Origin: an uncultured bacterium
GTDB lineage: Bacteria; Bacillota; Clostridia; Lachnospirales; Lachnospiraceae
Direction: 5' to 3'
Assembly (NCBI GenBank): GCA_947383005.1
Contig: CANDBT010000042.1
Coordinates: 1-38,730 of the forward strand
DNA: 38,730 nucleotides
Numbering within the stretch: position 1 is the stretch's first letter; each line of letters begins with the position of its first letter. Both the position numbers and the translations under genes were made by a program. The notes beneath the pieces were generated by a model. That model was not told where the DNA came from, did no database searches, and saw only the letters and a list, made by a program, of their open reading frames with translations. Positions 9,376 to 37,261 of the stretch are shown here, in pieces.

Positions 9376-11189
9376 TTGAATCAAGTAGGAGGTAGGCGAT
9401 TATTCCTCCTACCGACCTCTCACACCACTGTACGTACCGTTCGGTATACGGCGGTTCAATCAACTTAACAAGTAACAAGCCTTTCGGCGTAGTAGCCCTC
9501 CATGGATACAAGACCAAACTTAGCCAGTCTCTCTTTGCTGATACCAATGTGGAGATTCCAGCTTCTGCACACTCTGGCATATCCTTTGGCATATGAGATG
9601 CCATGTGCCGCATATGGTGGTAGACCAAGTTTGATAAGATTCTTTTCCCTGTTCTTTGGCGTTTTCCAGTGTTTCCATATGCACAGGCGGTATCAGATCT
9701 GTCCGTCCATTTTTGCACACAGCCCTTTCATGCTTCCGATTTTGAAATAATTTATCCATCCTCGGATAAGCTGGTTGAGTTTCCCAATCTTATAACCATT
9801 GCTCACTCCCCAACTCCTGCTTGTATATTTCTTCATCTGCGCCTTGAACTTTGCTACCGCTTTCGGGTGTGGTCTGGCTTTGTACCCTTTGGCAAATGAG
9901 TCATAGTAAAATCCAAATCCAAGATACTTAATGCCCTTTGGCTTATCAACCTTGCTCTTTTCTGCGTTCACTTTCAGACCAAACTTTTCCTCTATAGAAT
10001 CGGGTCACACTCTTCATCACGCGTTCTGCCGCCCGTCTGCTCCCGACCATTATAATAAGGTCATCTGCATACCGGACGAAATCCAGCCCTCTTGCCGCTA
10101 GTTCTTTGTCCAACTCGTTTAGCATGACGTTCGCTAACAGCGGCAAGATATTTCCGCCCTGCGGTGTGCCGACTATCGTATCTTCATACTCATCGTCAAT
10201 CTTCACGCCGCTGGCCAAAAACTTTCTTACCACCGATATGACATCTCCATCCTTTATTGTCCGTCCGAAGATTGTCATCAGCTTATCCTGGTCTACTGTG
10301 TCAAAGAATTTAGCAAGATCGATGTCCACTATCCAGTTGTGTCCATCATTCATTATTTCTAATGCTTTTAGGACTGCCTGCTGTGCACACCGGTTAGATC
10401 CGAATCCATAGCTGTGGTCGTGAAACTGTTCCTCAAATATCGGGGTGAGTACCTGTAATACCGCCTGTTGTACAAAGCGGTCTGTTACTGTCGGCACTCC
10501 AAGATTTCTTGTACCACCATCGGGTTTGAGTATCTCCACCCTGCGAACTGGCTACGGCTTATATTTTCTCGTCCGCAGCTGTTCCCTGATGCTTTCGCCG
10601 TTTTCCGAAAGGTATGCGTCAAGCTCTTCCACGGTCATCCCGTCCACTCCTGCCGCCCCTTTGTTCCTTACGACTTGCAGGTACGCTGCATTGAGGTTAT
10701 CTTTGCTCAATATCTGCTCCATAAGACTACTTGTGTCCATGCGTTGTTTCCTTTCTGCCCCTTTTGCCTTTGCCGCCTTTGATGTCATCGACAGGCGTAT
10801 GCTCCGGCTACGAAGTGGAACGTACTTCAACTGATTGATTATTCAGCCCTTCGCTCCATCCCCATTACAGGAACTTCCTCACTACTATGGCTTCTGCTGA
10901 CTTCTCACAGTTCGTTGTTACTACGGCTGATGAGACCGCCTGTGAGACCTCCCCAGTTAAGGTGCACACTCTTTCCCTCCATGCACCTGCCACATTTACT
11001 CGTACTTCCGGCAACCTTTTGGACTTCAGTGCCTTTTGCCACCTTATCCGTATTTCCGAGCCTTATATGTGGTTCCTGTCCGTCAGGTCAGAGGTTTGCT
11101 TACAGCTTCTTTCAGATTCCGTCTCACGGCGGACACCCTTGCTATTCGGCTATGTGCTTCGTCGTTGCCTACGTGCACTCGGGACTTTC
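9376..11189 (-). mobile_element. Group II intron, 5'-truncated, with dead maturase
   Basis: On the minus strand, 11189 to 10800 is non-coding and has the purine-rich GGGTGTCCGCC and CGGAATCTGAAAGAAGC style of intron domain I-IV RNA. The reverse transcriptase/maturase follows. After its stop come a domain V-like stretch at about 9415-9460 (GAACCGCCGTATACC, GGTACGTACAGTGGTG) and a domain VI-like hairpin ending near 9376. The true 5' end is missing because the IS66 end begins at 11190. The 3' boundary is approximate. Splicing and mobility are not expected. Confidence 0.85.
9465..10740 (-). pseudogene. ltrA: Group II intron reverse transcriptase/maturase (LtrA-type), multiply disrupted
   Basis: The start is taken as ATG 10740 (MDTSSLMEQILSKDN) behind the site AGAAAGGAAACAACGC. 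RT motifs are present: GAAGVDGMTV, GTPQGGNILPLL and the catalytic FVRYADDLII. The GIIM-type tail (WKTPKNREKNLIKLG) precedes the TAA at 9465. Three lesions are visible. One is an in-frame TAG at 10552-10554 between KYKP and PVRRVEI, where the family usually has Gln. The second is an extra T near 9996, after which the frame resumes as IEEKFGLKVNAEKSK. The third is an in-frame TGA at 9693-9695 between MDGQI and YRL. The whole would be about 420 residues. It cannot make a full protein. Confidence 0.9.
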
Positions 11190-20196: not shown

Positions 20197-23100
20197 TTAT
20201 TCCTGTTTGTCTTCTTCCTTTCTCCCATATGGTATTGCCCCTTCTGCCACCATAGACAAATTCTGCGGCATCTCATATATATAAGCGCCCGTCTCATCCA
20301 AAGCCTTTATGTCCTTCTTCCTCATCTCCCGATACACAACCTCCGCCAACGCACTCATAATCGCATTATACTTAGCCGTATCCTCAAACAAACTTTGATA
20401 CGACTCTTGTGCCTCCATATATCCATCCTGTGCTGCCGTACCAAACGCTTTGGGGAAAATACTTTCCACAAAAATCTGCGGGTCAGAAGATTGCGCCATC
20501 TTTTTCAACTTCTTATCAGAAAGCAACTTATCCCTCAGTGCTGACAGAATAACTTTATCCCCCTCCGTAAAATTGCCCTTAAATTTCTCATTAATCTTTG
20601 CAATCACCTCATCCAAAGGTGTTTTTTCATCCATTCCCTTGACGCCTTTGTGCTTTGCTGGAACATACATTGTCTTTGCTTCTTCTAAAGCAATTTCACC
20701 TTGGAATGTCTTTTGCAATTTGTAATATTCCAGTTTCAGCTTACCTTCCAAGTCAATCAGTTCTACAGGGTCTTTCGGCAATAAACCAATTAGGTATGAG
20801 CAAAATACATATTCCTTCTGCAACTCTTTATCAAACATTCTCAATATCTGCGATATGTAACTATACCACTTAATCAAATTCCGTACCTGTCTTCGAAATT
20901 GGTATCTTTCATTTTGAGTCTTTTTGTTATAACGATTGGAAACAGGAAGTAAAATACTACTCATTCGCCCCATTGCTCTATTGTCCTGCTTGCCTTTTTT
21001 GTAATACTCATCTGTAAAAGCTTTAATATCCTCATCCGAGTATATACCATACGCCCGCAATTCTCTCTGTGTCTGATACAATAAGTCTGCGTTTACTTCT
21101 TCCTGCAAGAATGTTTCCTGATAGAATGGCTGAAATGCGTCCTTGATATCCTCCGCCTTATTTACGAAATCCAGCACAAAGGTATCTGTCTTACCCTCGC
21201 AAGTACGGTTCAATCGGGACAAAGTCTGCACTGCTTTCACATTCTTTAATTTCTTATCCACAATCATCGTATGTAAAAGCGGTTCATCAAACCCCGTCTG
21301 GTATTTTTCCGCCACAATCAGCACATTAAAATTGTCATGGAACTCCGCTTTCGTCTGATTTTCCGAAATATGGGAACCATCTTTGCGTACATTCAGCTTT
21401 GATTCCGTATATTCCTCGCCCTTATCGTCAATGGCACCGGAAAAAGCCACCAGAATATCCACGTCATCATACTTCTTTTCCTCAATATAACGTTTGATTT
21501 CGTGGTAATAGCGAACAGCAGCCAGTCTTGACGATGTGATTATCATCATCTTTCCTTTACCATCAATCTTATGCCTTGTGGTATCCCTGAATGTCTCCAC
21601 AATAATCTGTGATTTCTGACTGATATTATATGGGTGCAATTCCTGATATTTACGGATCACCTTTGCCGCCCTGCTGGACGGAACATCCGGATTATCTGTC
21701 ATAGTTTTTGCAATTCGGAAACAGGTATTATAGGTCATATAATTCTGAAGGACATCCAGAATAAATTTCTCCTCAATCGCCTGTCTCATGCTATACACAT
21801 GGAATGGATGGAAAGAACCATCCTCCTGCTCTTGCCCAAACATTTCCAGCGTAGTCGCCTTTGGCGTTGCAGTAAAGGAAAAAAAGGATAAATTCTTATG
21901 CTTGCCTTGCGCAATCATTTCTTTTACAAGCCTGTCTTCCAGATCAACTTCTTCCTCCGCTAATCCCTCTCGCTCCGCATACTCTCTTAGGGCTTCTTCT
22001 GTATCTGCCAGCGCAGTCTTCAATTTAAGTGCCGAACTGCCCGTCTGAGAAGAATGTGCTTCATCTACAATAACAGCAAAGCATCTGCCATTTGCCTTAT
22101 CAATTTCCGTATAAATCACTGGAAACTTTTGTAGAGTCGTAACAATAATGCGCACACCGTCATTAATTGCATTTTTCAAATGTTGAGAAGTTTTATCCTC
22201 TCCTATGGTTTCTATGGCACCTAACTTATGGTCAAATCCCGCAATTGTTTCTTGAAGCTGCGCATCTAAAACAGTGCGGTCCGTCACGACGATCACACAG
22301 GAAAATACCGGCTTATTGTTTTCATTAAAAAGCGATGCAAGGCGATATGCTGTCCACGCAATCGAATTAGATTTGCCAGAACCTGCGCTATGCTGAATCA
22401 GGTAATTCTTTCCTGCTCCGTTTATCCGTACATCTGCAATCAGTTTCCGAACAACATCTAACTGATGATAGCGCGGAAATATCAATGTCTTCTTTTTCTG
22501 CAAATTAATAAACTTTTGGATAATATCCAACATACTGTCTTTCTGAAATACATTTTCCCAAAGATATGCTGTAGGATACCCGTTCGGATTAGGCGGATTG
22601 CCCGCACCGCCATCAGCGCCTGCTCCATTAGAGCCTTGATTAAAAGGTAAGAAATAGGTGTCTTTCCCTGCCAGTTTTGTTGTCATCCAAACTTCCGTAT
22701 GGTCTACGCAAAAATACGCCAAAATTCTCTTATTAAACTGAAAACATATCTCGCGTGGGTCTCTGTCATACATCCATTGAGTTTTAGCATTATCTACATT
22801 CTGCCCTGTGTACTGATTTTTTAATTCAAAAGCAAACACCGGAATCCCATTTACCACAAGCACCATATCCACCGACTTTTTGGTATCCGCAGAATAATAC
22901 CATTGTCTGTAGCACTCTACTTCATTTTCCGCATACTGAATCCCTGCTGTATCGTTCAACGCAGATTCGGGTTTAAAATAACAGACTTTAAAGGTAGTAC
23001 CCCGATGCTTAAATCCATTTCGCAAGACATGCAGCACGCCATCCATATCACAAGCATTATGAAAGACAACACAGAATTTGCGTACTGGGTCTATGTCGTT

Positions 23101-23286
23101 CTGCCGTTCAAATGCCGCCCACTCTCTCGGTTGGGTACGCTGGATAAAAGAAATCAGTTTATCCGGATATAAACCCAACTTCGGATTATACGTTCCGTTT
23201 CCCTTTGTATATCCGCCTTCGGCCGATATGAGAAAAGCCTCAATATCTGATTCAAACTGCTTTTCTGTGGTAACTGTTATGCCCAT
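20197..23286 (-). CDS. hsdR: Type I restriction enzyme R subunit (HsdR)
   Basis: 1029 residues. The N-terminal nuclease domain has the PD-(D/E)xK signature: Asp140 in SVDMVLV and Glu154/Lys156 in FAFELKNQ. The translocase has Walker [10 protein letters not shown] (299-307) and the DEAH box at 408-411 (VIVDEAHSS). Motif III lies at FFSFTATP and later motifs at [12 protein letters not shown] and TLSRLNRT. The C-terminal part is a helical coupling domain. The length is typical. HsdR joins HsdM and HsdS to cut unmethylated DNA after ATP-driven translocation. Two genes (DUF4062 and DUF1016) separate it from hsdS. It is complete and looks functional. Confidence 0.95.
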
Positions 23287-23335
23287 GATTCTTCCTCCGC
23301 AAATCTATTAAAAAAATTGCTACATGTAGCGACTT

Positions 23336-24382
23336 TTACTCTTTTCGCTGCTCTAATTGTATTTTTGCTCTTTGAATTGCCAAACGCAGCTTTTCTTCCA
23401 GTTCTTCCTTGGGTGGCATGGCTGTTAAGTATTGAGCCACTCTAATATCTCCCTTATCCAATTCAAGTAATTCAATTACTTCATCTGACTTCTCTGCACA
23501 TAATATTAATGCAATTGGCGCTTCTTCGTTTTCCATTCGCTCATATTTATTAAGCCATCGCAGATAAAGTTCTACCTGTGCTTTATACTCTGGTTCAAAT
23601 TCTCCAATTTTTAATTCCACAACAACAAGCCTTTTCAATTTTCTATGAAAGAACAACAAATCTATCTTGTAATCTTTTCCATCTATAGTAACCTTTTTCT
23701 GTCTCGCCATAAAAGCAAAATCCGTTCCCATTTCCAAAATAAATTTTTCCAGCTCTGCCAAAATTGCGTTTTCTAAGTCTTTTTCACTGTAAGTATCCTG
23801 TAATCCCAAGAAATCTAATATACAAGGGTCTCTATAAAACATATCTACCGTCATCATATCTTTTTCTTCTAAAAGCTGAATATCATTCCTAATTGTTTCT
23901 TCAGGACGCTTGGAAATAGCAGTTCTCTCATATAACATTGATTTTTTCCGTTCTCTTAATACTCTTACACTCCATCCTTCATTTTTACATAAAACAGCGT
24001 AAAATTCTCTTTTTAATTCGTCATTAACCGGCAATAACTCTTTAAAATGAGACCACGTCAATTGTTGCGACAGTGTAGCAACTTTTTCAAAATCAGGAAA
24101 TTCTTCATAGAATTGTATCATCCGGAAAACAGAACTCTTTTCATAAGACCGTCCATATTGAAACTCTAAATCCTTGCTCATATTTTTCACAATAGATTTA
24201 CCATATTCTGCCTTCTGTCCATTCAAAATATTATCTTTTAGTTCTTGTCCTATATGCCAAAACAAATATACGGTCTGAAAATTAGCAGTCTCAAATACTT
24301 TATGTTTAGCTGTTTCAATCATCTTCACAATCTTGTTATATGTCTGTTTATAATTTTCCGGCAAAATCAATTTGTTTTCCAT
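23336..24382 (-). CDS. DUF1016 (YhcG-type) PD-(D/E)xK nuclease-fold protein
   Basis: 348 residues in the usual two-domain form. The N-terminal DUF1016 domain (about 1-160) starts with YNKIVKMIETAK and has LSQQLTWSHFKELL. The C-terminal domain has the restriction-endonuclease-like core YKIDLLFFHRKLKRLVVVEL, where Asp and the ELK segment supply the D-ExK residues. YhcG-type proteins are common within type I R-M operons, where their role is unsettled (accessory nuclease or recombination). The gene starts 13 bases after the DUF4062 stop and ends 49 bases before hsdR. A scrap of a second copy survives at 9293-9336. Confidence 0.92.
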   Translation of the reverse strand: MENKLILPENYKQTYNKIVKMIETAKHKVFETANFQTVYLFWHIGQELKDNILNGQKAEYGKSIVKNMSKDLEFQYGRSYEKSSVFRMIQFYEEFPDFEKVATLSQQLTWSHFKELLPVNDELKREFYAVLCKNEGWSVRVLRERKKSMLYERTAISKRPEETIRNDIQLLEEKDMMTVDMFYRDPCILDFLGLQDTYSEKDLENAILAELEKFILEMGTDFAFMARQKKVTIDGKDYKIDLLFFHRKLKRLVVVELKIGEFEPEYKAQVELYLRWLNKYERMENEEAPIALILCAEKSDEVIELLELDKGDIRVAQYLTAMPPKEELEEKLRLAIQRAKIQLEQRKE

Positions 24383-24395
24383 TGAAGTCTCCCTT

Positions 24396-25373
24396 TTAAT
24401 TCCTAATTAAAATTAAATCATCTCTTACTTTACATCCTTTGGATGTTAATCCCCAAAACAATTTTTTATTTTCTTTACTCCATGAAGAATTTATTAAATT
24501 TAATGCCCGAAACTGATTCAATATTTTTTTAACAAATTGGCTATCATTCAAATACACCGAATAATCACCCGAATAAAATTTTGTTTTTATTGTCTCTTCA
24601 ATACTATTTTCAGTGATTGACACATCCATCATTTCCGTAGCAATTACCTTAAAAATTTCCTTCAAATTCGTTGCAACACTTCCATATCGCGTTCTGTGAT
24701 TTTCATAATAATGATATTCTATTTTTATCTCCTGATCTTCAAACGCAATATGGGTTTGCTCCGTTAAAGAAGAAATCTCTTCTCTCGCAGCCTTTAAATC
24801 ATTTGCCAAGTGTTCATTTTCACTCTTCAATGTCATAATTTCCCGTCGGAGAGACGCCTCATCAAAATCAACTGCCCTCTGCCACCCCGGACGTTTTATT
24901 TCCGTTTTTGCCTTCATAATTGAAATTGCCAATTTACCGGTTAAGTCCTCTGTTGAAGCCCATATACTTGCTAATCTATTCGTCATTGCTTTTGTGCGAA
25001 ACTTCTCTAATTTATCTTTCTTATCCTCATCCGCTTCTATTTTATCTGACGCAAGCTTCACATTGTCATCAATAGCAAATACCAAAACAGGAATGCCTTG
25101 CTCTATTGCATAATCATATTCCATTTCAGTATAACTCTTTCCAGTATCCGGATGAACTGAACCATAACGCTTACCGATTATCAACACATAGTAATCACAT
25201 AAATCTATAACTTTCTTTATCACTTCAAATTGCTCTGTATCTGCCGCCACAAATGCTTCCATTCCTGCCGGAATACAATCTGCCATAAAAAGAACATCAA
25301 GAATCTTTTTACGTTCTTCGGCTAGGTCAGTATATGTTGAACTGATAAACACCTGATATTTCTTATCATTCAT
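24396..25373 (-). CDS. DUF4062 (TIR-like) protein in the type I R-M operon
   Basis: 325 residues. The N-terminal 100 residues match DUF4062: KYQVFISSTYTDLAEERKKI, then YYVLIIGKRYGSV and SYTEMEYDYAIEQGIPVLVF. The fold is flavodoxin/TIR-like. The order of strand, Glu-rich helix and IGxRYGS is the family mark. A coiled coil spans about 175-205, and the C-terminal third is a winged-helix-like domain ending LTSKGCKVRDDL. Such proteins turn up in defence islands, some as sensors or effectors, with no fixed reaction known. It sits between hsdS and the DUF1016 gene on the same strand with short gaps, which makes it part of this operon. Confidence 0.88.
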   Translation of the reverse strand: MNDKKYQVFISSTYTDLAEERKKILDVLFMADCIPAGMEAFVAADTEQFEVIKKVIDLCDYYVLIIGKRYGSVHPDTGKSYTEMEYDYAIEQGIPVLVFAIDDNVKLASDKIEADEDKKDKLEKFRTKAMTNRLASIWASTEDLTGKLAISIMKAKTEIKRPGWQRAVDFDEASLRREIMTLKSENEHLANDLKAAREEISSLTEQTHIAFEDQEIKIEYHYYENHRTRYGSVATNLKEIFKVIATEMMDVSITENSIEETIKTKFYSGDYSVYLNDSQFVKKILNQFRALNLINSSWSKENKKLFWGLTSKGCKVRDDLILIRN

Positions 25374-25431
25374 GTATTTTTATCTCCTTTTTTATCCAAT
25401 TACCTAAACACTGTTTCGGCACTCTTTCATT

Positions 25432-26772
25432 TTATGCCTGATACTTCTGTGGAACTTCTTTTTTCCCTGTCACATATTCATAAATTAAAGATTTTTTGTA
25501 ATTTTCTATTTCGGAGAGGTATTGCTCTTTCTTTGCAATAAGGTTATCTATTGCTAAACACTTTTTCTTAAGATAATTCACTATCTCCCTCTGCTCTTTC
25601 ACTGGTGGAACCGGTATTATAATACTTTTTAAATCTTCCTTCGACACCTTTAGTCTACAAGTATTTACCCGGTCATCTCCCCGAACAATCGCATATATAC
25701 CCTTTCCCAGACTATATAACACTCTCAACATAGTTTTACTTCTAAATATATACTCACAATATTTTGCTGTCACATGATCTTCTAATTCATCATAAAAAGT
25801 ATAGTATACCGGACTTACACATCCAAAATAATCAGATACCCCTGTTGCACCTACAATCATATTCATACTATTCATTACCAAATCGCCCTCATAGGCTAAT
25901 TTATACTGTTCAAAATCATCTTTAAATCTATCCAAATTTGTGGTTTTCTCCGCATAAAGCGTCACTCCCAAATTAATAGATAAAGATAATCGCTCCTCTG
26001 ATTTTATAGGACTATTTTTTTCTTGGCGTTCCTTAAGTACATGGCGAAACGGAATAAGTTTCCACCCAATAGGTATGCTCCCAATCCACTCAACACCGCT
26101 ATCCTTCATTTCTCTGTTACCTCTTATTCCTTTGGTAACAGTCTGTGTAATCACAGCTTGCTTTAACTTTTTGTATTCCTCTATACTTGTGTGAGTTTTT
26201 TCAAGCACATTATCAAGTTCTGTACAAACATCCTTCAAAAAACTGACAATACGCATTTGTTCTCCTTTTGTTTCTGGCAACACAATAGGAAGATTTACAT
26301 ATTTATCCGCACTGATGTTTTGAATTGTTGATTGAATAAAAATCCCATTTCTCCAAATATCATACCCTGTTGAACATGTATAATAATAAACATACTCTGG
26401 TACAATTTTTTCCTTCAATCGCGCTCTAATTAAATACCCTGCAAAAGCAGCCTTCCCATACTCTGTATAATAAATAAAACTCTTTCCAACTGTAGCCCCG
26501 CTTCTAGCAAATAATATATCCCCATCTTCTAATAGATAAGGACTTGCATCTTCTAATTCTATAGATAATGCACCATCATTTTTTAATCTTCCATCTGTTG
26601 TAATATCTGTAATTCTAATATATCTTGGCAAATTATTCGAATATTCTATTCCGCTAGAATTTGCGCCATAATCCAAAGGCTTTCTTAATAAATGTTTTAG
26701 TCTAAAAACTCTATATTCTTTCGGTATCTCCCCAATCCACTCAATCCCGCTACCCTTCATCTCTCTAGCCAT
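25432..26772 (-). CDS. hsdS: Type I restriction specificity subunit (HsdS)
   Basis: 446 residues with the two-fold repeat of HsdS. Each half opens with the same phrase: GSGIEWIGEIPKEYRVFRLK (near 7) and DSGVEWIGSIPIGWKLIPFR (near 223). These start the two target-recognition domains. Conserved helices follow each (LKDVCTELDNVLEKTHTSIE, LKKKCLAIDNLIAKKEQYL) and act as rulers between half-sites. The two TRDs differ, so the target should be bipartite and asymmetric. The start lies two bases after the hsdM stop. No inverted repeats for TRD shuffling and no second hsdS copy are visible nearby. Confidence 0.95.
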   Translation of the reverse strand: MAREMKGSGIEWIGEIPKEYRVFRLKHLLRKPLDYGANSSGIEYSNNLPRYIRITDITTDGRLKNDGALSIELEDASPYLLEDGDILFARSGATVGKSFIYYTEYGKAAFAGYLIRARLKEKIVPEYVYYYTCSTGYDIWRNGIFIQSTIQNISADKYVNLPIVLPETKGEQMRIVSFLKDVCTELDNVLEKTHTSIEEYKKLKQAVITQTVTKGIRGNREMKDSGVEWIGSIPIGWKLIPFRHVLKERQEKNSPIKSEERLSLSINLGVTLYAEKTTNLDRFKDDFEQYKLAYEGDLVMNSMNMIVGATGVSDYFGCVSPVYYTFYDELEDHVTAKYCEYIFRSKTMLRVLYSLGKGIYAIVRGDDRVNTCRLKVSKEDLKSIIIPVPPVKEQREIVNYLKKKCLAIDNLIAKKEQYLSEIENYKKSLIYEYVTGKKEVPQKYQA

Positions 26773-26774
26773 AC

Positions 26775-28532
26775 CTATTTCTCCTCCGCAAACAACTTAT
26801 CCAAAGAAGCAGAAATATCAGCCTCCAGCACATGAATCCGCGCCACGATATCCTCCACTTTTTCCGGTGCCTGATACTCATAGAAATATCTTGTCATAGG
26901 TATCTCATACCCCACCTTCGTCTTTTTCTTATCAATCCACGCATCATCCGCATATGGCAGCACTTCCCTCTCAAAATACCTGTCAATATCCTGTATAAGC
27001 GGTACATTCTCTGTATCACGCAGGCTTGCATCGGCAACCGGTTTTCCTTTTTTCAGGACAATTTCACCGTTCTCATCCCGCTGTGGTCTTTCCACCACAA
27101 TTTTGTTATATCCAAACTCTACCGTTTCAAATATTTTACTCTCACAATAGATTCCACTCTTATCTCCATACACAACACAGTTTTCAAAAGAACCATAAGT
27201 CTTTACAATCAGTTCCCGACACTGATCTGTAATATCGTTTCTTTTCGTTCCAATACTCTTTCTCCTTGCCTCATAACAATGAGAAGCATCTATAAGCTGT
27301 ACTTTTCCTTCCCGATATGCCGGTTTATTCTTGGAGCAAATCCAAATGTATGTACTGATGCCCGTATTCATAAACATATCCGTAGAAAGCTGCACAATAC
27401 AATCCAGCCAGTCGTTTTCCAAAATATATCTTCTAATCTCCGAAGAACCGCTTCCGGCATCTCCCGAAAATAACGGAGAACCGTTTTGTATGATCGCCAT
27501 CTTCCCATTCGGCGCAAGCTTAGAAAGCCCATTTAATACAAACAACTGCTGTCCGTCACTGATTTTAGGCAGTCCGGGTGCAAATCTGCCCTGTTCGCCT
27601 TTCGCTGCTTCTTCTTCCACCTTTTTCTGCTCACGTTTCCAGTCGATTCCAAAAGGCGGATTAGAAATACAATAATCAAAGGTAAATCCTGCAAACTGAT
27701 CGTCTGACAAGGTATCTCCAAACCGCATATTATCCGGATCTCCACCACGAATCATCATATCTGCTTTTGCTATTGCATAAGTAGACGGATTAAACTCCTG
27801 TCCAAAACAGGTGACTTCTATATCGCTGTTCAAATCATGGATTCTCTCTTCCATGCAGGAAAGCATCTGGGATGTTCCCATCGTCATATCATAGACTGTC
27901 ATTCCGCCTGCGTCTAAATTCGCATCCGCAAGCAGCAAATCCGTCATAAGATAGATAATATCCCTACTGGTAAAATGCGCTCCTGCTTCCTCTCCAAATG
28001 ACTCTGAAAAGCGGCGCACTAAGTCTTCAAAAATATAACCGCAATCCACAGCGCTGATTTTATCAGCGCCTAAATAACCTTTTTCAGAATTAAACTCTTT
28101 GATAATCAGATACAATGTATTACTCTCCACCATTCTTTTGATAATATTATCAAAATCAAACTTTGAAAGAACATCCTGCGCATTTGCAGAAAAACCAGCT
28201 AAATAATCTTTAAAATTCGTTTCTATATTATCCGGATCAGCCAAAAGCGTCTCAAATGTAAATTTGCTTGTATTATAAAACTGGTAGCCTGATGCCCTTG
28301 TCAAAAAACCGTCAATGACTGCCAAATGCTTCACTTTTTCGTACTGCGCAAGCACGTTATCATGCGTAGGCAGTAAACAATCATGAAATCTCTTGACCAC
28401 TGTCATAGGCAAAATAATAAGACCATATTCATGCGGCTTAAACGGTCCCCGAAGCATATCTGCCACATTCCAAATGACAGTCGCTTTTTCCGCTATATTG
28501 ATTCCAACATCACTAATTTTATTATTGCTCAT
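26775..28532 (-). CDS. hsdM: Type I N6-adenine methyltransferase subunit (HsdM)
   Basis: 585 residues. The N-terminal helical HsdM domain covers about 10-160. The catalytic domain has motif I in VYDMTMGTSQML (213-224, the usual FxGxG glycine replaced by MGTSQ) and motif IV NPPF at 291-294 (CISNPPFGIDW). AHFTSRDIIYLM precedes it, as in all HsdM proteins. It methylates adenine in the HsdS target and is needed for self-protection. The ATG overlaps the XRE gene's stop by 11 bases, so the two are coupled. Confidence 0.95.
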   Translation of the reverse strand: MSNNKISDVGINIAEKATVIWNVADMLRGPFKPHEYGLIILPMTVVKRFHDCLLPTHDNVLAQYEKVKHLAVIDGFLTRASGYQFYNTSKFTFETLLADPDNIETNFKDYLAGFSANAQDVLSKFDFDNIIKRMVESNTLYLIIKEFNSEKGYLGADKISAVDCGYIFEDLVRRFSESFGEEAGAHFTSRDIIYLMTDLLLADANLDAGGMTVYDMTMGTSQMLSCMEERIHDLNSDIEVTCFGQEFNPSTYAIAKADMMIRGGDPDNMRFGDTLSDDQFAGFTFDYCISNPPFGIDWKREQKKVEEEAAKGEQGRFAPGLPKISDGQQLFVLNGLSKLAPNGKMAIIQNGSPLFSGDAGSGSSEIRRYILENDWLDCIVQLSTDMFMNTGISTYIWICSKNKPAYREGKVQLIDASHCYEARRKSIGTKRNDITDQCRELIVKTYGSFENCVVYGDKSGIYCESKIFETVEFGYNKIVVERPQRDENGEIVLKKGKPVADASLRDTENVPLIQDIDRYFEREVLPYADDAWIDKKKTKVGYEIPMTRYFYEYQAPEKVEDIVARIHVLEADISASLDKLFAEEK

Positions 28533-30164: not shown

Positions 30165-30662
30165 CTAATACGTTCCTGAAGCAGAAATAGCATCTTCAAT
30201 TAATTGCTCCAAATGTTCCTCGATATCCGCATACACGTTCTTACTTGAGCTATAGCTTGAATCAAAACACTCCACAAAATTAGACAATCTCTTATTATCA
30301 TATGTCATTATGTTGTAAAACGGATTACTGCCTTTGGTTGTCTGTTCTCCCTGATTATCCTCCAAATTATGTATATATATTCCTACTATCCCTTTATTCA
30401 ATTCATATGCCTTTTCAATCTCATACTTTACCCATTTTCTCGTTGACGTTGTACTTCCAACCAAAACCACCAAGCATGAACGCATTGCTAATTGGGAATC
30501 TATCCACTCTTTAATCTTTGCATCCGTTTTAAGTTTTACTTCTTCCCAGTCATTATCAGAAAATGTAGAGGAATCAGATACTTTCCCCATATTTCTCACT
30601 TGACCAGCCCTCCAATTATCCTTATTGTACTCGAAACTGAAAAACACTTGCCTTTTTGCCAT
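30165..30662 (-). CDS. thsB: Thoeris ThsB-type TIR protein (DUF1863 form)
   Basis: 165 residues. The opening AKRQVFFSFEYNKDNWRAGQ and VRNMG match the DUF1863/ThsB N-terminus (VFFSFHY...RxxxVRN in the Bacillus cereus protein). The STRKWVKYEIEKAYELNKG segment supplies the conserved TIR glutamate, Glu in KYEI. NPFYNIMTY follows. Known ThsB proteins sense phage and make a cyclic ADP-ribose isomer from NAD+ that activates ThsA. It starts 7 bases after thsA. It is about 25-30 residues shorter than the B. cereus ThsB at the C-terminus. A second, different ThsB lies upstream of thsA. Confidence 0.85.
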   Translation of the reverse strand: MAKRQVFFSFEYNKDNWRAGQVRNMGKVSDSSTFSDNDWEEVKLKTDAKIKEWIDSQLAMRSCLVVLVGSTTSTRKWVKYEIEKAYELNKGIVGIYIHNLEDNQGEQTTKGSNPFYNIMTYDNKRLSNFVECFDSSYSSSKNVYADIEEHLEQLIEDAISASGTY

Positions 30663-30669
30663 AAAATCA

Positions 30670-32100
30670 TTACCTCCTAATTAATTTTATAAATTTTAAT
30701 ACATTATCAATCAATGTATTATTATCCACCTTGCTATTCAACTTTTCAAAAGTTTCTTTCAAATCCGCATCAACTTTATTATAATACTTTGCCAAATCCT
30801 TATTTACTTCTTCCCAAATTTCTTGAGCCACATAGCCAGTGCAGCCAATAGGAACTATTAAATTATGTTGTTCTTTTGCAATTTGAAACTCAGACCTCAT
30901 ACCATTAGCTAATACTATATTTCCATTTTCCAATTTATTTCCAAACAGAAATATAGATATTCCAGCTCTTGATATCATATCTTCACGATACTGTTTCCAT
31001 AACTTTTGTCTTGTATCTTCATTTTCTATTCCTTGAGGAAACGGTCTCAAAAGCAATCTGCTTTCATTTATAGTTTTTCTCCTCATATAAATTTCTTGTA
31101 AAGCTCCTGTTATAACAGCACTTCCTACACCAACTCCAAATCCAGATATAATATTATATTCTTCACGGATTAATCTATTGCTTAGCTGGTGTATAAATTC
31201 CACAGCTTCTTTTTCCTCATAATCTCCATATTCAGCCGCACTTCCAGAAACAAATATATTATCATTATTTAATCGTCTACTGATCTCTTCCAACACATTC
31301 GTAATTTCATCATATTCATCTATCATTAAAGCGCGTATATTATATCTTTTTAAATCCTCAACAAAAAACTGATGTTTCCGCTCCGCATACTTATAATCTG
31401 CTCTATTTTCATATTCATTTTCTTTAATTTTGCGTATAAGGGCGTAATGCTGTCTCTTATTTTCTCCATAATCAATTCTTATTCTACTCAAAATATAATC
31501 AATATTTGGATCTGCGAAGCTAAATCCAATGAACAAAAATGTCTTTGAAATCAGATCTCCGCTTAATGCGGTTATAAACTGTGCATGTTCACGATAATAC
31601 TTCTCATAGTCATCTTTAATGAGAATTGCTTCATCTGGATTATTTTTATCACCATGCATTTTATATACAACGGCATCCCGATGCGGTTTGGTAATAGAAA
31701 ACTGTTTATTATTATATTTCACATCAACAACACGTTGTGCATCTGCTAATGCATCTTCTATCAGAGAATCATAGTTAGTCGTCCAGTATGTAAATATTGG
31801 CAGTCTTGCCAGTATCTTGTGATTCACCCCAAACTCCTTTTCCTTAGAAAATTCTTCAAAAATCACATCATTGATTATACTTCTGTTTCCATTTTTGTTA
31901 TAACAATATTGTGCTAATGAAACTAAATCATGCTCTTTATCTACATTCAACCCTAATTCTTCTGCAATATCTCTCAATAAATTTTTCCAGTCCACGTATC
32001 CTGAACTCTTTGAAAAGCCTGCCCCTGCAAAAATAGCTGCATTATTATTTCTTATTTCTTTTACATACCTTTCAACAAATGCAGAAATTTCTCTATTCAT
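30670..32100 (-). CDS. thsA: Thoeris ThsA (SIR2-SLOG NADase)
   Basis: 476 residues, the same length as Bacillus cereus ThsA as I recall it. The SIR2 domain (1-275) has the NAD-binding loop FAGAGFS (24-30), TTNYD with Asn109 and KMHGD with His149. The 40-residue spacing of these two equals that of the catalytic Asn112/His152 in B. cereus ThsA. The C-terminal SLOG domain (about 285-476) opens with IFVSGSAAEYG and has IISGFGVGVGSAVITGA, the nucleotide pocket that binds the ThsB signal. When activated it destroys NAD+ and stops the infected cell. The catalytic residues are intact. Flanked by two thsB-type genes with 11- and 7-base gaps, so the three form one unit. Confidence 0.93.
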   Translation of the reverse strand: MNREISAFVERYVKEIRNNNAAIFAGAGFSKSSGYVDWKNLLRDIAEELGLNVDKEHDLVSLAQYCYNKNGNRSIINDVIFEEFSKEKEFGVNHKILARLPIFTYWTTNYDSLIEDALADAQRVVDVKYNNKQFSITKPHRDAVVYKMHGDKNNPDEAILIKDDYEKYYREHAQFITALSGDLISKTFLFIGFSFADPNIDYILSRIRIDYGENKRQHYALIRKIKENEYENRADYKYAERKHQFFVEDLKRYNIRALMIDEYDEITNVLEEISRRLNNDNIFVSGSAAEYGDYEEKEAVEFIHQLSNRLIREEYNIISGFGVGVGSAVITGALQEIYMRRKTINESRLLLRPFPQGIENEDTRQKLWKQYREDMISRAGISIFLFGNKLENGNIVLANGMRSEFQIAKEQHNLIVPIGCTGYVAQEIWEEVNKDLAKYYNKVDADLKETFEKLNSKVDNNTLIDNVLKFIKLIRR

Positions 32101-32111
32101 AATTCAACACC

Positions 32112-32693
32112 TCATCTTCTCGAAAACCAATCTTCTAATGGCAACAATGTGCAATTGCCATCTTCATTTGTACATACATAATATCCCGCCGCTACTGATG
32201 AACCATTTTTATATCTATCTCCATACTCTTGTTTTACAATATATGGATAAATAGACATATACTCATTACCCTTGTAAAGCGAGTCACTGCCTCCTTTGGG
32301 CTTCATCGGGAAAAGCGCAATATTATCTTGAAACTTTTTTGCATCTCCAAACCCCAATTCCCAATTGCACCATTTTGATTCAACTGCCCCATTTGTTGCC
32401 AGCAATATAAACTTATTGCATTGTGTTATTTTTTCTTTTATCCTTAATGCTGTCTTACCAGAAGTATTGTTAGGCATTAGCGGATCACGACTGTCTATAT
32501 AGGCTTTGACATGATAGTTATTTTCCAAAAAGCCAATCAATCCCATTAAATCTTTTAAGTCATCGTGTTTATGGGAAATAAAAACTGTTGTTCTCCCAAC
32601 TTTTTCATAAAATTCTGTAACTGGTTTGACTGCTTCATCTAACCTAATATCCATATAATCATTAAAATCACCTTGTTCAAATATATGTTTCAT
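32112..32693 (-). CDS. thsB: Thoeris second ThsB-type TIR protein
   Basis: 193 residues. A 30-residue leader precedes a TIR domain: TTVFISHKHDDLKDLMGLIG (strand A and BB-type region), VKAYIDSRDP, CNKFILLATNGAVESKWCNW and ELGFGDAKK with the catalytic-type Glu directly after WCNW. The C-terminus carries IYPYIVKQEYGDRYKNGS. It is not close in sequence to the 165-residue ThsB downstream of thsA. Thoeris loci with several TIR proteins are known, and each is thought to detect different phages. The start follows AAAGAGGTAAGAA. It lies 56 bases after the endonuclease stop, so it may share the longer transcript. Confidence 0.88.
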   Translation of the reverse strand: MKHIFEQGDFNDYMDIRLDEAVKPVTEFYEKVGRTTVFISHKHDDLKDLMGLIGFLENNYHVKAYIDSRDPLMPNNTSGKTALRIKEKITQCNKFILLATNGAVESKWCNWELGFGDAKKFQDNIALFPMKPKGGSDSLYKGNEYMSIYPYIVKQEYGDRYKNGSSVAAGYYVCTNEDGNCTLLPLEDWFSRR

Positions 32694-32749: not shown

Positions 32750-33667
32750 CTATCTCGGTCCTAAAAACTTATCCCCATTCAAATGTATCATATGCTCCGG
32801 CATCTCCGCAATCCAGACTTCCGTTTCCCATGCCAAATTTTCTGAAAATCTCTTATAAGTCTTAAAATCAAGAAATGCTGTCACAAAGATTTTCCCTGCC
32901 GCTACACTCTTTGTCATTTCAGTTATTTCCAATATTCTTTTAGCGTCCATCGGACCTACGGAAGTCACTGATTCAACAAAATATATCCAGTCTTTATCTT
33001 CTCTGTACAAAACCACATCCGGCATCTTGTCATGCAAAGTTATTTCAAATCCCAATTCTTTTAACTTATCAACATTCTTTACCAAATCTTTCTCTATGGT
33101 ATCACCAACATACAAACATTCTGAATTGGGCGCAAATCGTGGCGCAAATTCCTGAATAATAGCCTTTTGCAGTTCATTGTGTCTGCCTATAGAAAATTGA
33201 AAATCTGCTCCATTGATACGCACCGGCATCATTGTCATTTTCTTTTTTGAAGCATACATGTCTACCAGTTTTTCATGATATTCCAAAAATCGACTTACAG
33301 ACTTTTGCCATTCTGATGTTTGAAATGTCCTTACCATCTGCAATGTTTCTTCTGTAAGCCTGTACCTGTAATTAGGACTGTTTGTGGCTTTTCCATTATC
33401 CTCTACAAGTGCGGCATTGCGAAAATGATGTAATGCCTGTTTACGAAAAGTTTCCCTGCTGTTTTCCGCATAAGTTGATCCATAATATGTATTCGCAAAT
33501 TGGATAATATCATGGATACGAATCCACTCATTTCCAGCATCTTCCCATAATGTATCCGGCTTTATCCCTGCCATTGCCAACAGCACATAACAGCAAATAT
33601 CTGCCTGCTGCGTTTTCGGCATTCCAAGCATTTTCAGAAGTTCTCTTGCCTCATTAATTTTATCCAC
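32750..33667 (-). CDS. BsuBI/PstI-family type II restriction endonuclease
   Basis: 305 residues. The N-terminal helical half (1-130, with RIHDIIQFANTYYGSTYAEN and RETFRKQALHHF) and the C-terminal catalytic half match BsuBI/PstI enzymes. The core is MPDVVLYREDKDWIYFVESV with Asp217 and Glu232, followed by the family phrase TSVGPMDAKR. Characterised family members cut CTGCAG; this protein's target is inferred. The GTG start overlaps the methyltransferase stop by 8 bases, so nuclease translation depends on prior methyltransferase translation. It is intact, unlike the relic at 6389-6688. Confidence 0.93.
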   Translation of the reverse strand: MDKINEARELLKMLGMPKTQQADICCYVLLAMAGIKPDTLWEDAGNEWIRIHDIIQFANTYYGSTYAENSRETFRKQALHHFRNAALVEDNGKATNSPNYRYRLTEETLQMVRTFQTSEWQKSVSRFLEYHEKLVDMYASKKKMTMMPVRINGADFQFSIGRHNELQKAIIQEFAPRFAPNSECLYVGDTIEKDLVKNVDKLKELGFEITLHDKMPDVVLYREDKDWIYFVESVTSVGPMDAKRILEITEMTKSVAAGKIFVTAFLDFKTYKRFSENLAWETEVWIAEMPEHMIHLNGDKFLGPR

Positions 33668-35147
33668 AATATCCCTCCAATATCATATTGCAATTACTTT
33701 CTGACATATCCTTGCTTTTCATCAGTTTTCTGCCCATTTCCTGTATGCTTTCTAAATCAGGCACAGGCATTGCGTTTATTTCTGTTGAATTTACCTGCGT
33801 TGAACCATTTAGAATCCTATAATATTCATCGTAAAGTGTAGAATTAAAAATTACATATAATCCATACACAAGACATTCTGACATTTCCGTTATCAATCCA
33901 TCTACAAAATTTATCTTATTCTGTGTGCTGATTTTCTTATACTGAGGATATTTCTTTGATAAATATACCCCACACTGCAGTCTGCGCCTTTCTTCTTTTG
34001 CAGTAAAACGCTTAACAAATAAATAATTCCGATTATCCTGCATTAGTCCTTTTTGGTCAGTCACAACATACTCATGTTCTTTCTGGATAGGAAACTGCAC
34101 TTGTCCATGTTTGATATGTTGTGAGTAAAAAAGCGGAATCGCCCCTTCCTCTGCATCATCACGAAGTATCTCGCGATTGCGAAAATCAACTGTCAATCCC
34201 GTTTTCATTTTTAGTCCAATATCCGGTAATGTTTTATCAAATCTATGTAATCGTTTCAACACGGAAACTTCTTTTTCATCTGTTACTAAATAAACATAAT
34301 AATCATCTCCCGAAACTACCAGGCTATATGGCACTGTCAGCGAAGTTAGATCAGCAAAATCACTGTTTGATTGTGAAGAAGTGATCGTAACCTCTTCTGG
34401 CGTTTGGTTTGTCCTTTTTACTTTTATAATGATTGTTTCCTGCAAGACATCTTCTTTATCAAACACCTTATTTCTGCTTACAAATAAATGAATATGTTCT
34501 AATTTCCCTTCTGTTAAAAAATACTGTCTAAATCGCTTAAAATAAGCCCCAGAAGTCCATGAACGAGGGATAATATACACCATCTCCCCTTCACTATCAA
34601 GATTAAACAATCCCATTGCTGCAAAAATAAAATATAAATTGGGGGCGCCATAACATACGTCTGGCATAGCTGTTGCTTCCGGTGCATCTTTAGGTATCTT
34701 CATATATGGAGGATTGCCAATAACAAAATCATATTTCTTAGGATCGAAATTGCCGCCCAACATATGATTGAAGTCCAAATACTGACTTGTAATATAATTA
34801 TCTGTGACAACATGAATTTGTATGTCTTTTTTAGAGTTTACCTGACAAGTATGCAAGTTCTCTTTTAACAATTCCAAAATGTTGTCATCATTTTCATAGC
34901 AGGTTAACTCTATCGTCTGAATAGAATTCATCTGTTCTAATCGTTCTAAAAGCGCACACGCCAATATGCCCGAACCTGCCCCTGCATCTAAAATGCGAAT
35001 CTTGAACAAATTTTCAGGAATAGTATATAGTCCAGCCATAAAACGTGCTGTCTCTTTACTTGTAAAAAACTGACCATATTTTTTACGCTCTTTTTTCGGC
35101 ATATCATCAATATATCTGTTTGTACGTTCAATAATGCAATCTAACAT
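33660..35147 (-). CDS. BsuBI/PstI-type N6-adenine DNA methyltransferase
   Basis: 495 residues. KKYGQFFTSKETARFMAGL (23-41) is the Eco57I/TaqI-type opening, motif I is RILDAGAGSGIL (51-62) and motif IV NPPY is at 145-148 in FVIGNPPYMKI. The C-terminal half is the target-recognition domain. It should methylate adenine in the same site the paired endonuclease cuts, by family CTGCAG. It starts 18 bases after the RT stop and overlaps the endonuclease. A frameshifted copy is at 6681-8146. Confidence 0.94.
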   Translation of the reverse strand: MLDCIIERTNRYIDDMPKKERKKYGQFFTSKETARFMAGLYTIPENLFKIRILDAGAGSGILACALLERLEQMNSIQTIELTCYENDDNILELLKENLHTCQVNSKKDIQIHVVTDNYITSQYLDFNHMLGGNFDPKKYDFVIGNPPYMKIPKDAPEATAMPDVCYGAPNLYFIFAAMGLFNLDSEGEMVYIIPRSWTSGAYFKRFRQYFLTEGKLEHIHLFVSRNKVFDKEDVLQETIIIKVKRTNQTPEEVTITSSQSNSDFADLTSLTVPYSLVVSGDDYYVYLVTDEKEVSVLKRLHRFDKTLPDIGLKMKTGLTVDFRNREILRDDAEEGAIPLFYSQHIKHGQVQFPIQKEHEYVVTDQKGLMQDNRNYLFVKRFTAKEERRRLQCGVYLSKKYPQYKKISTQNKINFVDGLITEMSECLVYGLYVIFNSTLYDEYYRILNGSTQVNSTEINAMPVPDLESIQEMGRKLMKSKDMSESNCNMILEGYCG

Positions 35148-35165: not shown

Positions 35166-36176
35166 TTAATCAAATCCTTGTTCTGTATTAATGCCAACAT
35201 TATGTATGTGCTTAGAAAGATACCTGCCTTTTTCCCTTTTAGACCTATAAAATCTGTCTCTTGATAATTTCTTTAGCTCCTGCTCATAGCTATGGACGTA
35301 CCTATATATTTCCGGAAAGATATCTGGTTCTATTTGTCTTAGCGAACATAAGGTTCCGTTAAGCTTTTCAATTTGATATATATTACTGCTTTTTTTACAT
35401 TTTGCATATAACTCTATTATTTGTTTACGCTTACTATTAAGCACAAGCTTTTTCCCCTGCTTTATTCCAACTCCGGTAACAACCTTAAAATCGTTTACCT
35501 GATAATAATGATCCTTTTTACTTTTTGCCAATAATCCGTTCTTTCTTAATACATCGGAGACCCCATCTCTCAAGATGGCTTTAATCGGAAAATCAGAAGA
35601 AAATGTCATATCATCTACGTAAAGCGAAAAATAGCAATTATATTCTTCTGCTAATTCATTTATTCTCTGAAACATGCTATGGTATGTCCAGTATATAATT
35701 AGTTGGCTAGAGGGGCTTCCTGTTGGCAATGTTCCATTATATGTTACTAACTCAGTCATAATCCATGCAATATCAGACGCCATATTAAAAGTTTGTGAAA
35801 ACATTTGATAGATTCTGCTTCGCTGCGCTGAATCATAAAATTTTGATATATCCATTGTTTTCACAAATCTATGTTCTAAATGCACCTCTGCATTTGTAAT
35901 ATAACTACATGATTTTTTACCTGACATTACCCATTCTGGCGTTATAATTCGTTTAAATAGTTTACAAATATGTCTTTGTATACCCTTTAAATCTTCTGGC
36001 GGTACAGTAAAATGTCTTTCTCCATCTCCATTGGGTTTCGGTCTTGAAAATTCATTATAACAATAGGTATGTTTTTCCTTAAAATAGTTTTTAGGCAGAT
36101 TTAAAAATTCCGCTAGCTTTCTTCTATTCCTCAACCGATACAATGGGCTGTTCTCTATTGGATAACATTTATTCAT
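35166..36176 (-). CDS. Retron-type reverse transcriptase
   Basis: 336 residues from ATG 36176, which overlaps the XRE stop (ATGAATAA) and has GGAAAG upstream. A longer frame from 36200 is possible but less likely. RT marks in order: NEFSRPKPNGDGERHF (palm entry), NAEVH (95-99), the retron-specific NAxxH, MDISKFYD with catalytic Asp109, LPTGSPSSQ (150-157), YVDDMTFSS with the catalytic Asp pair (188-189), and VVTGVGI (VTG 233-235), the retron-specific VTG region. No maturase, integrase or C-terminal nuclease domain is present. Retron RTs copy part of a structured RNA into msDNA. A structured RNA candidate lies upstream at 36720-36950. The gene is followed by the methyltransferase after 18 bases. 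Confidence 0.88.
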   Translation of the reverse strand: MNKCYPIENSPLYRLRNRRKLAEFLNLPKNYFKEKHTYCYNEFSRPKPNGDGERHFTVPPEDLKGIQRHICKLFKRIITPEWVMSGKKSCSYITNAEVHLEHRFVKTMDISKFYDSAQRSRIYQMFSQTFNMASDIAWIMTELVTYNGTLPTGSPSSQLIIYWTYHSMFQRINELAEEYNCYFSLYVDDMTFSSDFPIKAILRDGVSDVLRKNGLLAKSKKDHYYQVNDFKVVTGVGIKQGKKLVLNSKRKQIIELYAKCKKSSNIYQIEKLNGTLCSLRQIEPDIFPEIYRYVHSYEQELKKLSRDRFYRSKREKGRYLSKHIHNVGINTEQGFD

Positions 36177-36474
36177 CTTCAAACTTTCCAACTCTTTCAA
36201 GTATTTTCAATAATTTCATTCCCGCTAATGCCACTTTCTGTTTTTTATCATTTTGTACTTCAACATCATTTTCCAAAGCTTCTGCAAATAATAATAATGT
36301 TGATTTTTTCATTTCAAATACACTGGCATACTTATCTAATATATCCATTGTCGGCTGTTTCTTATTATTTTCTATCTCCGAAACATAGCTTTGAGAAATT
36401 CCAAGTTTCTCAGCTAATTCAGCAGATTTATATCCATTAAAAATCCGTAATAATCTAAGTGCTTCTCCAACCAT
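36169..36474 (-). CDS. XRE-family HTH regulator, retron companion
   Basis: 101 residues. A Cro/C1 helix-turn-helix covers 1-60: YKSAELAEKLGISQSYVSEI and ENNKKQPTMDILDKYASVFE. The C-terminal 40 residues form a charged helix ending FEDE. The start follows GAAGGGAAG. The gene overlaps the RT start by eight bases. It could control the whole downstream unit or be part of the retron's toxin control. Small Cro/C1 proteins are reported with some retron types. Confidence 0.88.
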   Translation of the reverse strand: MVGEALRLLRIFNGYKSAELAEKLGISQSYVSEIENNKKQPTMDILDKYASVFEMKKSTLLLFAEALENDVEVQNDKKQKVALAGMKLLKILERVGKFEDE

Positions 36475-36521
36475 AGATCTTCCCTTCTCTATCTATGCAT
36501 AAAAAAATAGATTAGTTGGCA

Positions 36522-36686
36522 CTAAAACAAGTTATCTAAAATCAACTCAATAATGGTTTTGCAAACATAGATAACAAATTTGCCAACCAATCTTACGATT
36601 GATTTCTTGTTATTTCTACAGAATGCCACCACCGTTTCAATGCCGGATTTGAAAAATACTTTAACTTTTCCGCAAAACCTTTTCAT
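36522..36686 (-). CDS. 54-residue basic, membrane-like peptide in the retron cassette
   Basis: ATG 36686 follows the excellent site GAAAGGGGGCG; the frame could extend to 36749 but without a comparable site. The peptide is MKRFCGKVKVFFKSGIETVV, then a basic turn (RNNKKS) and a hydrophobic helix (VRLVGKFVIYVCKTIIELIL). Two amphipathic or membrane helices and high positive charge resemble small membrane toxins. It lies between the structured RNA region and the XRE gene. I do not recognise a family. Confidence 0.6.
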   Translation of the reverse strand: MKRFCGKVKVFFKSGIETVVAFCRNNKKSIVRLVGKFVIYVCKTIIELILDNLF

Positions 36687-36719
36687 AGTTTCGCCCCCTT
36701 TCTCATCTTTATAATCAAA

Positions 36720-36950
36720 GACGCCATCCAAGAAAGGAATTCGAATCAAGGTCTTTTTTCAAATCACAAACTAATCAATCATTAAAGCGTGTTCCATCCA
36801 CACGCTTTGAGAACGCTATATACCATACTGCAGTATGTGATGTGACAATGCGCACATACCATATGGAACACGCATGATACTCGCTCCCCGGTTTAAATTT
36901 AAGGTTTCCCTTCCAAGCAATTCGCTCACGTTACATCTTCTGGATGGATA
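36720..36950 (-). ncRNA. Candidate retron msr-msd RNA
   Basis: Read on the minus strand downstream of a strong promoter. A candidate a1/a2 pair is CCATCCA (minus strand of 36941-36947) with TGGATGG (minus strand of 36724-36730), extended by GAA/TTC across a one-base bulge. Just after a1 comes GTGAGCGAATTG, which has the AGC context of a branching G, then an AAGG-GAAA-CCTT tetraloop hairpin. The msd-like long hairpin has outer arms GCGTGTTCCAT and ATGGAACACGC (36863-36873 and 36787-36797) and inner pairing GTATGTG/CACATAC. A separate hairpin, AAAGCGTGT/ACACGCTTT, occupies 36784-36808. Exact ends are not known. Confidence 0.55.
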
Positions 36951-36973
36951 TACCTATTTGTTAAAGTACTATC

Positions 36974-37001
36974 AGTATAACACATAAGCAGAAAAAGTCA
37001 A
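36974..37001 (-). promoter_or_regulatory. Strong sigma-A-type promoter for the retron cassette
   Basis: On the minus strand TTGACT (36996-37001), a 16-base spacer and TATACT (36974-36979) with TG nearby. Transcription would start near 36967, directly ahead of the candidate a1 segment. No other comparable promoter is seen before the RT, so it may drive the retron and perhaps the R-M and Thoeris genes. Confidence 0.7.
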
Positions 37002-37261
37002 GATATTTTATCGCTATTAGTGATATTTTTTTAGATACCACATTCAACGTACCGCAACCATCAACTTTAAACATCGTTTCTAAATATTATGTCACCATTA
37101 ATCCTCCCTCACTACATGGTGCTAGCACCATGTCTATATGATTTTCAATAAAAAGAAAAAATACTGTCTCTTATCTACAACGTCTAAAAAATTACCTATT
37201 CCTTATATAGAGATTAGCATCTTACGAAAGGACATAGAAATACCATTCCCTCCCTCACCTT
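37002..37261. other. Spacer between relaxase operon and retron promoter
   Basis: No gene is seen. It is AT-rich and contains the palindrome at 37114-37133. Confidence 0.45.
37114..37133. promoter_or_regulatory. 20-bp perfect palindrome upstream of the retron cassette
   Basis: ACATGGTGCTAGCACCATGT, with the same ACATGGTG/CACCATGT arms as the palindrome at 30117-30146. It could be an operator for the XRE protein, a recombination mark or a terminator stem. It is not followed by a T run. Confidence 0.65.

Follow-up and report, generated by a model that had tools for sequence, protein, structure and literature searches.

The window, by which we mean the whole 38,730-nt stretch of DNA analysed here, contains a compact locus that reads on the minus strand, 5' to 3', as an inverted repeat, a promoter, a structured RNA, a 54-codon ORF, an XRE gene and a retron-type reverse transcriptase (RT) gene. 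A previous sequence-only reading had listed a promoter, a structured RNA, a 54-residue basic peptide, an XRE protein and a retron RT; all of these parts were recovered, all on the minus strand, with a promoter of the form TTGACT, 16-nt spacer, TATACT. The inverted repeat falls just outside the coordinates of the earlier description and is absent from it. The features are:

37010-37024, minus: inverted repeat ATCACT-AAT-AGCGAT resembling an operator, separated from the downstream -35 by 8 nt, probably the XRE site judging from its sequence
36974-37001, minus: promoter predicted from sequence, -35 TTGACT at 36996-37001, 16-nt spacer, -10 TATACT at 36974-36979
36784-36967, minus: retron ncRNA (msr-msd), both ends estimated, from alignment and covariation
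36941-36948, minus: candidate a1, UCCAUCCA, complementary to 36793-36800
36924-36926, minus: AGC in a short stem, a possible branch context suggested by the sequence-only reading
36809-36887, minus: long variable hairpin (helices 5-8), candidate msd, the reverse-transcribed part
36784-36808, minus: conserved 9-bp hairpin at the 3' end of the ncRNA
36793-36800, minus: candidate a2, UGGAUGGA, mostly within the loop of the conserved 9-bp hairpin
36694-36737, minus: hairpin predicted to mask the peptide ribosome site, CCTTTCT (36731-36737) against GAAAGGGGG (36694-36702)
36522-36686, minus: basic amphipathic peptide of 54 aa, net charge +8, two-helix model, candidate effector
36169-36474, minus: XRE/HTH protein of 101 aa (PADLOC HTH_VI 4e-28, Pfam HTH_3 5.3e-13)
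35166-36176, minus: retron RT of 336 aa (PADLOC RT_VI 3.5e-80; also by tree and nearest solved RTs)

The promoter is aligned in all seven sequences of the upstream alignment, and the end of the XRE gene and the start of the RT gene share 8 nt. A perfect 20-bp palindrome, ACATGGTGCTAGCACCATGT (37114-37133), lies farther upstream, beyond the retron promoter; it is kept in three relatives (L003, L004 and L006), nearly kept in L005, and absent in L007 and L008.

Retron RTs are marked by the motif set NAxxH, YxDD and VTG, and the window RT has NAEVH (residue 95), YVDD (residue 186) and VVTG (residue 232), so that both retron marks and the intact YVDD reported earlier are present; across 15 aligned RTs the first motif always keeps its N and H, the second its Y and both D residues, and the third its T and G. 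In profile searches the RT matched PADLOC RT_VI and the XRE matched HTH_VI, at the values given above. Fifteen solved sequences matched the RT: the best seven are named retron RTs (Ec86, Ec67, Ec78 or St85 family), the nearest being Ec86, Ec67 and Ec78, and some lower-ranked ones are named only RNA-directed DNA polymerase. The profile match and the nearest solved structures thus place the RT within the retrons. The earlier remark that the set of peptide, XRE and RT matched no well-known retron layout is corrected as regards XRE and RT: these same matches identify the two as the known type VI pair of PADLOC, alike to other type VI retrons in having the two genes adjacent. By profile assignment, with RT_VI and HTH_VI side by side, the locus is a type VI retron; the retron types were reportedly defined by Mestre et al. 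in 2020. A quick RT tree (89 rows) puts all 41 RTs of the XRE type inside one supported set of 46, whose other five members are L138 (its locus cut by a contig end), L154, L014, L015 and L016. Among named contigs bearing close RT relatives, five of seven are called Lachnospiraceae.

Two peculiarities of related RTs may be recorded here: (i) The 136-contig genome to which the window belongs (as contig C42) encodes a second, distant retron-type RT (L002, on contig C69), and the tree does not place it with the type VI set. (ii) On two alphaproteobacterial plasmids (L155 and L156), the type VI RT is followed on the same strand by a gene for a TIR-domain protein.

Relatives of the locus were gathered from genome contigs, plasmids, phages, E. 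coli and viral contigs. Neither the window RT nor the L015 RT, used as a single query, found a relative among the viral contigs; searching them with the RT alignment gave 32 loci, among which L138 (cut at the contig end) and L139 contributed no XRE-RT pair. HTH_VI proved too broad when applied over a phylum, hitting 282 of 398 genomes at 1e-12, and that search supplied only locus L082 together with 28 control XRE genes (L084-L111). Loci were kept when an XRE of the type VI family stood just before such an RT, which gave 63 loci, 41 of them with distinct XRE proteins; before counting, we dropped L001, L011, L013, L083 and L112, which duplicate the window and L042, together with 22 loci whose XRE protein was already represented. 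The named records among the loci belong to Bacillota, Pseudomonadota and one cyanobacterium.

A peptide ORF was called when it had an ATG start, 42-70 aa, a ribosome-site match of at least 3, a net charge of at least +1, a hydrophobic stretch, and an end 10-110 nt before the XRE gene, criteria that were fixed after the first examples had been seen. Such an ORF occurs in 39 of the 41 non-redundant XRE-RT loci (35 with a ribosome-site match of at least 4), always ending 31-90 nt before the XRE gene; the same criteria are satisfied in one of the 28 unrelated XRE loci and in 1.4% of 4000 single-base shuffles. It is lacking at two loci: in L071 the upstream DNA is truncated, and in L115 a 31-aa candidate can be seen by eye. 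The ORF is annotated as a hypothetical protein in some records and is absent from others; the P2-prophage version of the locus is carried by 99 of the 5426 complete genomes of E. coli, and in the four such regions inspected its peptide is annotated as a hypothetical protein. Two relatives with broken RTs (L009 and L010) have neither XRE nor peptide in front according to their ORF lists; loss of the peptide perhaps goes with loss of the RT.

Common to the peptides are an N-terminal half that is basic and an amphipathic helix, and the window peptide was modelled as two helices with a mean pLDDT of 84.3. A classical membrane span is not evident, since the best 19-residue stretch of the window peptide has a hydrophobicity of 1.58 and only 7 of the 39 peptides reach 1.6. 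Overall the peptide is under purifying selection: pooled pairwise comparison gave pN 0.089 and pS 0.287 for the six sequences of the window's group, and 0.169 and 0.462 for nine sequences of the P2-prophage group, within which the close pair L076 and L122 shows the opposite, the two peptide genes differing by seven nonsynonymous changes and by no synonymous one.

No match for the window peptide was found in PADLOC, Pfam, PHROGs or NCBIfam. Seven others of the 39, scanned against PADLOC and Pfam, likewise gave no match (one sub-threshold Pfam match, 0.085), nor did five others scanned against NCBIfam. PHROG families 15287 and 5826 match the P2-prophage peptide of L076 (6.8e-38 and 3.5e-29, the query lacking its first residue) and the peptide of an Aeromonas plasmid, L074 (1.8e-8 and 5.2e-7); both families are without a function, no retron link is given for them, and the window peptide matches neither. 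Outside the window's group, many peptides are joined by sequence similarity, and three other groups are weakly linked to one another (E 0.0004 to 0.004). Homology of the window's group to these three was looked for by profile-profile comparison and none was found, so we claim equivalence of the peptides by place and character, not by descent.

Four of the RTs in the supported tree set (L014, L015, L016 and L154) are preceded directly by a small protein, of 62, 62, 82 and 93 aa, respectively, each containing a 19-residue hydrophobic stretch with a Kyte-Doolittle value of 2.2-3.1. These loci have no XRE of the type VI family and no operator-like repeat at 10 of 12 positions; the three small proteins scanned (L014, L015 and L154) have no match in PADLOC or Pfam. 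The four count as two cases, because L014-L016 are related. When plasmids and phages were searched for further relatives without the XRE, the only close additions were Enterococcus copies, besides two distant plasmid matches. Given the hydrophobic small protein before the RT in these relatives, the constant partner of the RT looks like a small membrane-acting protein, and the XRE looks like an added regulator.

The inverted repeat suggests regulation by the XRE. Its general form, TTCGCT-N3-AGCGAA, lies upstream of the -35 in most loci, and the clade of the window has ATCRCT-N3-AGCGAT; the window repeat agrees with the clade form at 11 of 12 positions and with the general form at 9. The general form alone reaches at least 10 of 12 in 23 of 40 loci, compared to about 2% of single-base shuffles. 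With both forms allowed, 27 of the 40 loci (L071, with its upstream DNA cut off, is left out) reach that score, and 23 of these 27 have a good promoter within the search range, which ran from 2 to 25 nt past the repeat on its downstream side; the distance from repeat to -35 is 5-9 nt in 22 and 13 nt in one. The repeat is found in 26 of 29 loci whose XRE recognition helix is conserved, i.e. S-[YFH]-[LVI]-S-[DE], and in 1 of 11 whose helix has diverged, the classes having been set after the table was seen. The Fisher p of 3.4e-6 for this contrast is flattering, since ten of the eleven diverged-helix loci form one clade and there are roughly two independent cases. The exceptions are three conserved-helix loci without a repeat of 10 of 12 (L005, L007 and L070) and one diverged-helix locus with it (L128), which has no good promoter beside the repeat. 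Repeat and helix are lost together, as one would expect of an XRE that recognizes the repeat, and the XRE is probably autoregulated in this way, through the repeat beside its promoter. We also considered msDNA as a decoy for the XRE and rejected it: none of 26 loci has an operator-like repeat of at least 10 of 12 in the ncRNA, and the density of half-sites there equals that of shuffles.

Support for the RNA structure is strong in the P2-prophage group, in which 11 sequences show 12 both-side pair changes against 4.6 in shuffles (none of 500 as high) and slid versions of the alignment show 0-2. In the group of the window it is moderate. There the six aligned sequences show seven both-side pair changes against 2.9 in shuffles, with one of 500 as high, but three of six slid-column versions reach five such changes, the covariation term is only -0.3 kcal/mol, and the window RNA folded singly is unexceptional (z -1.34; equalled or bettered by 22 of 200 shuffles). 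A conserved, foldable RNA is kept at the same place in homologous loci, which largely answers the objection that no such RNA might be conserved there. No retron family of Rfam was found in the window at the gathering threshold.

Within the RNA, helices 5-8 of the candidate msd have 79-98% of cells paired although the sequence varies, and the stem holding the AGC shows one compensatory change, in L008. The candidate a1/a2 pair spans 8 bp, with an invariant 6-bp core; the P2-prophage group likewise has an invariant 6-bp pair. Since the core never varies, covariation says nothing for or against a1/a2. The closing helix ACAAAU:GUUUGU was tried as a1/a2 and rejected, being broken in L007 and L008 (alignment judged by eye).

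Just 3' of this RNA, the ribosome site of the peptide ORF is predicted to be buried. Its pairing probability in the window is 1.00, compared to 0.60 in shuffles (none of 40 as high), and the masking helix has all cells paired in six sequences and is mostly invariant. Across loci (L115 and L071, the latter with its upstream DNA cut off, are left out), the median pairing is 0.84, as against 0.60 after shuffling of the upstream part, and pairing exceeds the shuffle mean in 38 of 39, the exception being L152; taken singly, 12 of the 39 stand out, the window included, in that at most 5% of 40 shuffles are as paired. Among the P2-prophage sequences, four of the both-side changed pairs fall in the helix above the masking stem; the masking stem is invariant. 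The XRE ribosome site is partly paired too (median 0.65), which makes coupled translation a simpler alternative.

We read these parts as a four-part, self-regulated anti-phage operon, and favor, with moderate confidence, an XRE-autoregulated type VI retron whose effector would be a translationally latent, membrane-active peptide. The XRE would bind the inverted repeat beside the -35 and so tune its own promoter. A single transcript, as suggested by the spacing, shared strand and gene overlap, would carry the msr-msd RNA first and then the peptide, XRE and RT, and the RT, with its retron motifs, would copy the msd into msDNA. With the ribosome site of the peptide locked in the hairpin just 3' of the ncRNA, as computation supports, little peptide would be made at rest, a state presumably kept by RT-msDNA. 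Phage infection might then disturb the XRE or the RT-RNA-msDNA state, whereupon the peptide would be translated or released, act on the membrane, and halt the cell before the phage matures. Support for the peptide as the toxin is circumstantial, coming from its occurrence in nearly all loci, purifying selection, the buried ribosome site, and the hydrophobic proteins of the XRE-less relatives. The sequence-only reading proposed that msDNA or the XRE protein could hold the peptide off; the evidence points to XRE autoregulation together with silencing at the RNA level.

Control might also lie more fully with the RNA. In the P2-prophage alignment, column 272 is the last of the a1:a2 helix and column 273 the first of the masking helix; both helices are invariant and so gain no confirmation from covariation. 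In the window's group the masking hairpin contains a second GGATGG that could pair with a1. We entertain, tentatively, that the ncRNA is a translational switch for its own toxin: the folding or copying state of its 3' end would decide whether the masking helix forms, and the XRE would only set the transcript level. If the 3' end of the ncRNA does control the anti-ribosome-site helix, damage to the RT-RNA-msDNA complex would directly turn on the membrane-active peptide.

Basic amphipathic helices can bind nucleic acid too, and the peptides here are basic, mostly in their N-terminal half. The peptide could accordingly be a structural or nucleic-acid-binding subunit of an RT-msDNA-XRE complex, the effector lying elsewhere, e.g. 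in action of the XRE on host promoters or msDNA; we think this unlikely. That a DNA-binding partner can be structural is illustrated by the type IX retron Kva2, in which a winged-helix protein is reported to touch the msDNA stem loop within the complex (PMC13405049). A constantly needed subunit would be oddly served by a buried ribosome site, however; a small hydrophobic protein takes the place of the peptide in the XRE-less relatives, and the ncRNA, with none of 26 loci reaching 10 of 12, offers the XRE no such operator-like target in msDNA. Quite unlikely, in our view, is that the ORF is a leader with an inactive product, whose translation would open the XRE ribosome site and couple XRE and RT to the state of the RNA. 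The short distance to the XRE gene in all 39 loci and the partial pairing of the XRE ribosome site would suit a leader, but amino-acid changes are on the whole selected against, peptide length, charge and helix character persist across phyla, and a small hydrophobic protein is retained by the XRE-less relatives.

Many XRE antitoxins have an operator of their own. The XRE and peptide might then be a toxin-antitoxin pair merely beside the retron RT and working without it, as is reported for Retron-Sda1, whose defence pair works without the retron RT and ncRNA (PMC12548924), yet this is very improbable here, for RTs with such an XRE form one set in the RT tree and the XRE-RT pair recurs in 63 loci. 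Free XRE-peptide pairs would be missed by our choice of loci, which was by RT similarity and XRE-RT adjacency.

The preferred reading, a retron with a latent membrane-active peptide, can be compared to three known kinds of system. (i) The type IV retron Ec48 has a two-transmembrane effector, and the likeness is that of a proposed membrane-acting effector in a retron. Here, in contrast to the two-span membrane protein of Ec48, there is a single amphipathic peptide of 54 aa, too modest in its best hydrophobic stretch (1.58) for an effector of the two-transmembrane kind; the RT is of another type and an XRE gene is in the operon. (ii) The type I toxin-antitoxin peptides TisB, Hok and Fst resemble ours in being small and hydrophobic or amphipathic, with a buried ribosome site (here by computed folding only), whereas our peptide sits within a retron operon with XRE and RT. 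(iii) Type II toxin-antitoxin operons with XRE antitoxins such as HipB and HigA have an XRE gene and an inverted repeat at its own promoter, a likeness seen here in sequence only; the XRE gives weak profile matches to HipB and HigA, far below cut-off, and differs in having a small peptide as partner, plus an RT and ncRNA.

PADLOC models of type VI retrons comprise the RT and the DNA-binding protein only, and the peptides scanned here are unmodelled. Among the matches listed in a search of open-access literature, we found nothing on type VI retron effectors, on the operator or on the masking of the ribosome site; the small ORF may stand in Mestre et al. 2020. This suggests that the type VI retron with RT and XRE is what was already known, and that the peptide as a fourth part and the two control layers are new. 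If the peptide is the effector, the whole class gains its missing part, the XRE shifts from suspected effector to regulator, and retrons gain an RNA-locked translation of a toxin otherwise known from type I toxin-antitoxin systems.

The window holds five further features of note on the minus strand. Directly downstream of the retron is a BsuBI/PstI-type restriction-modification pair (32750-35147), and a second, apparently broken copy of the same BsuBI/PstI-type methyltransferase gene occurs as two overlapping frames at 6681-8146, judged from the ORF list only. Thoeris genes, for a SIR2-STALD ThsA and two TIR-type ThsB proteins, occupy 30165-32693. A type I restriction-modification cluster at 20197-28532 encodes a methyltransferase, a specificity subunit and a restriction subunit; two more genes separate the specificity and restriction genes. 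Group II intron parts (Rfam RF02001 and RF01998) lie at 10846-11133, near an ORF at 9946-10539 that appears RT-like by eye.
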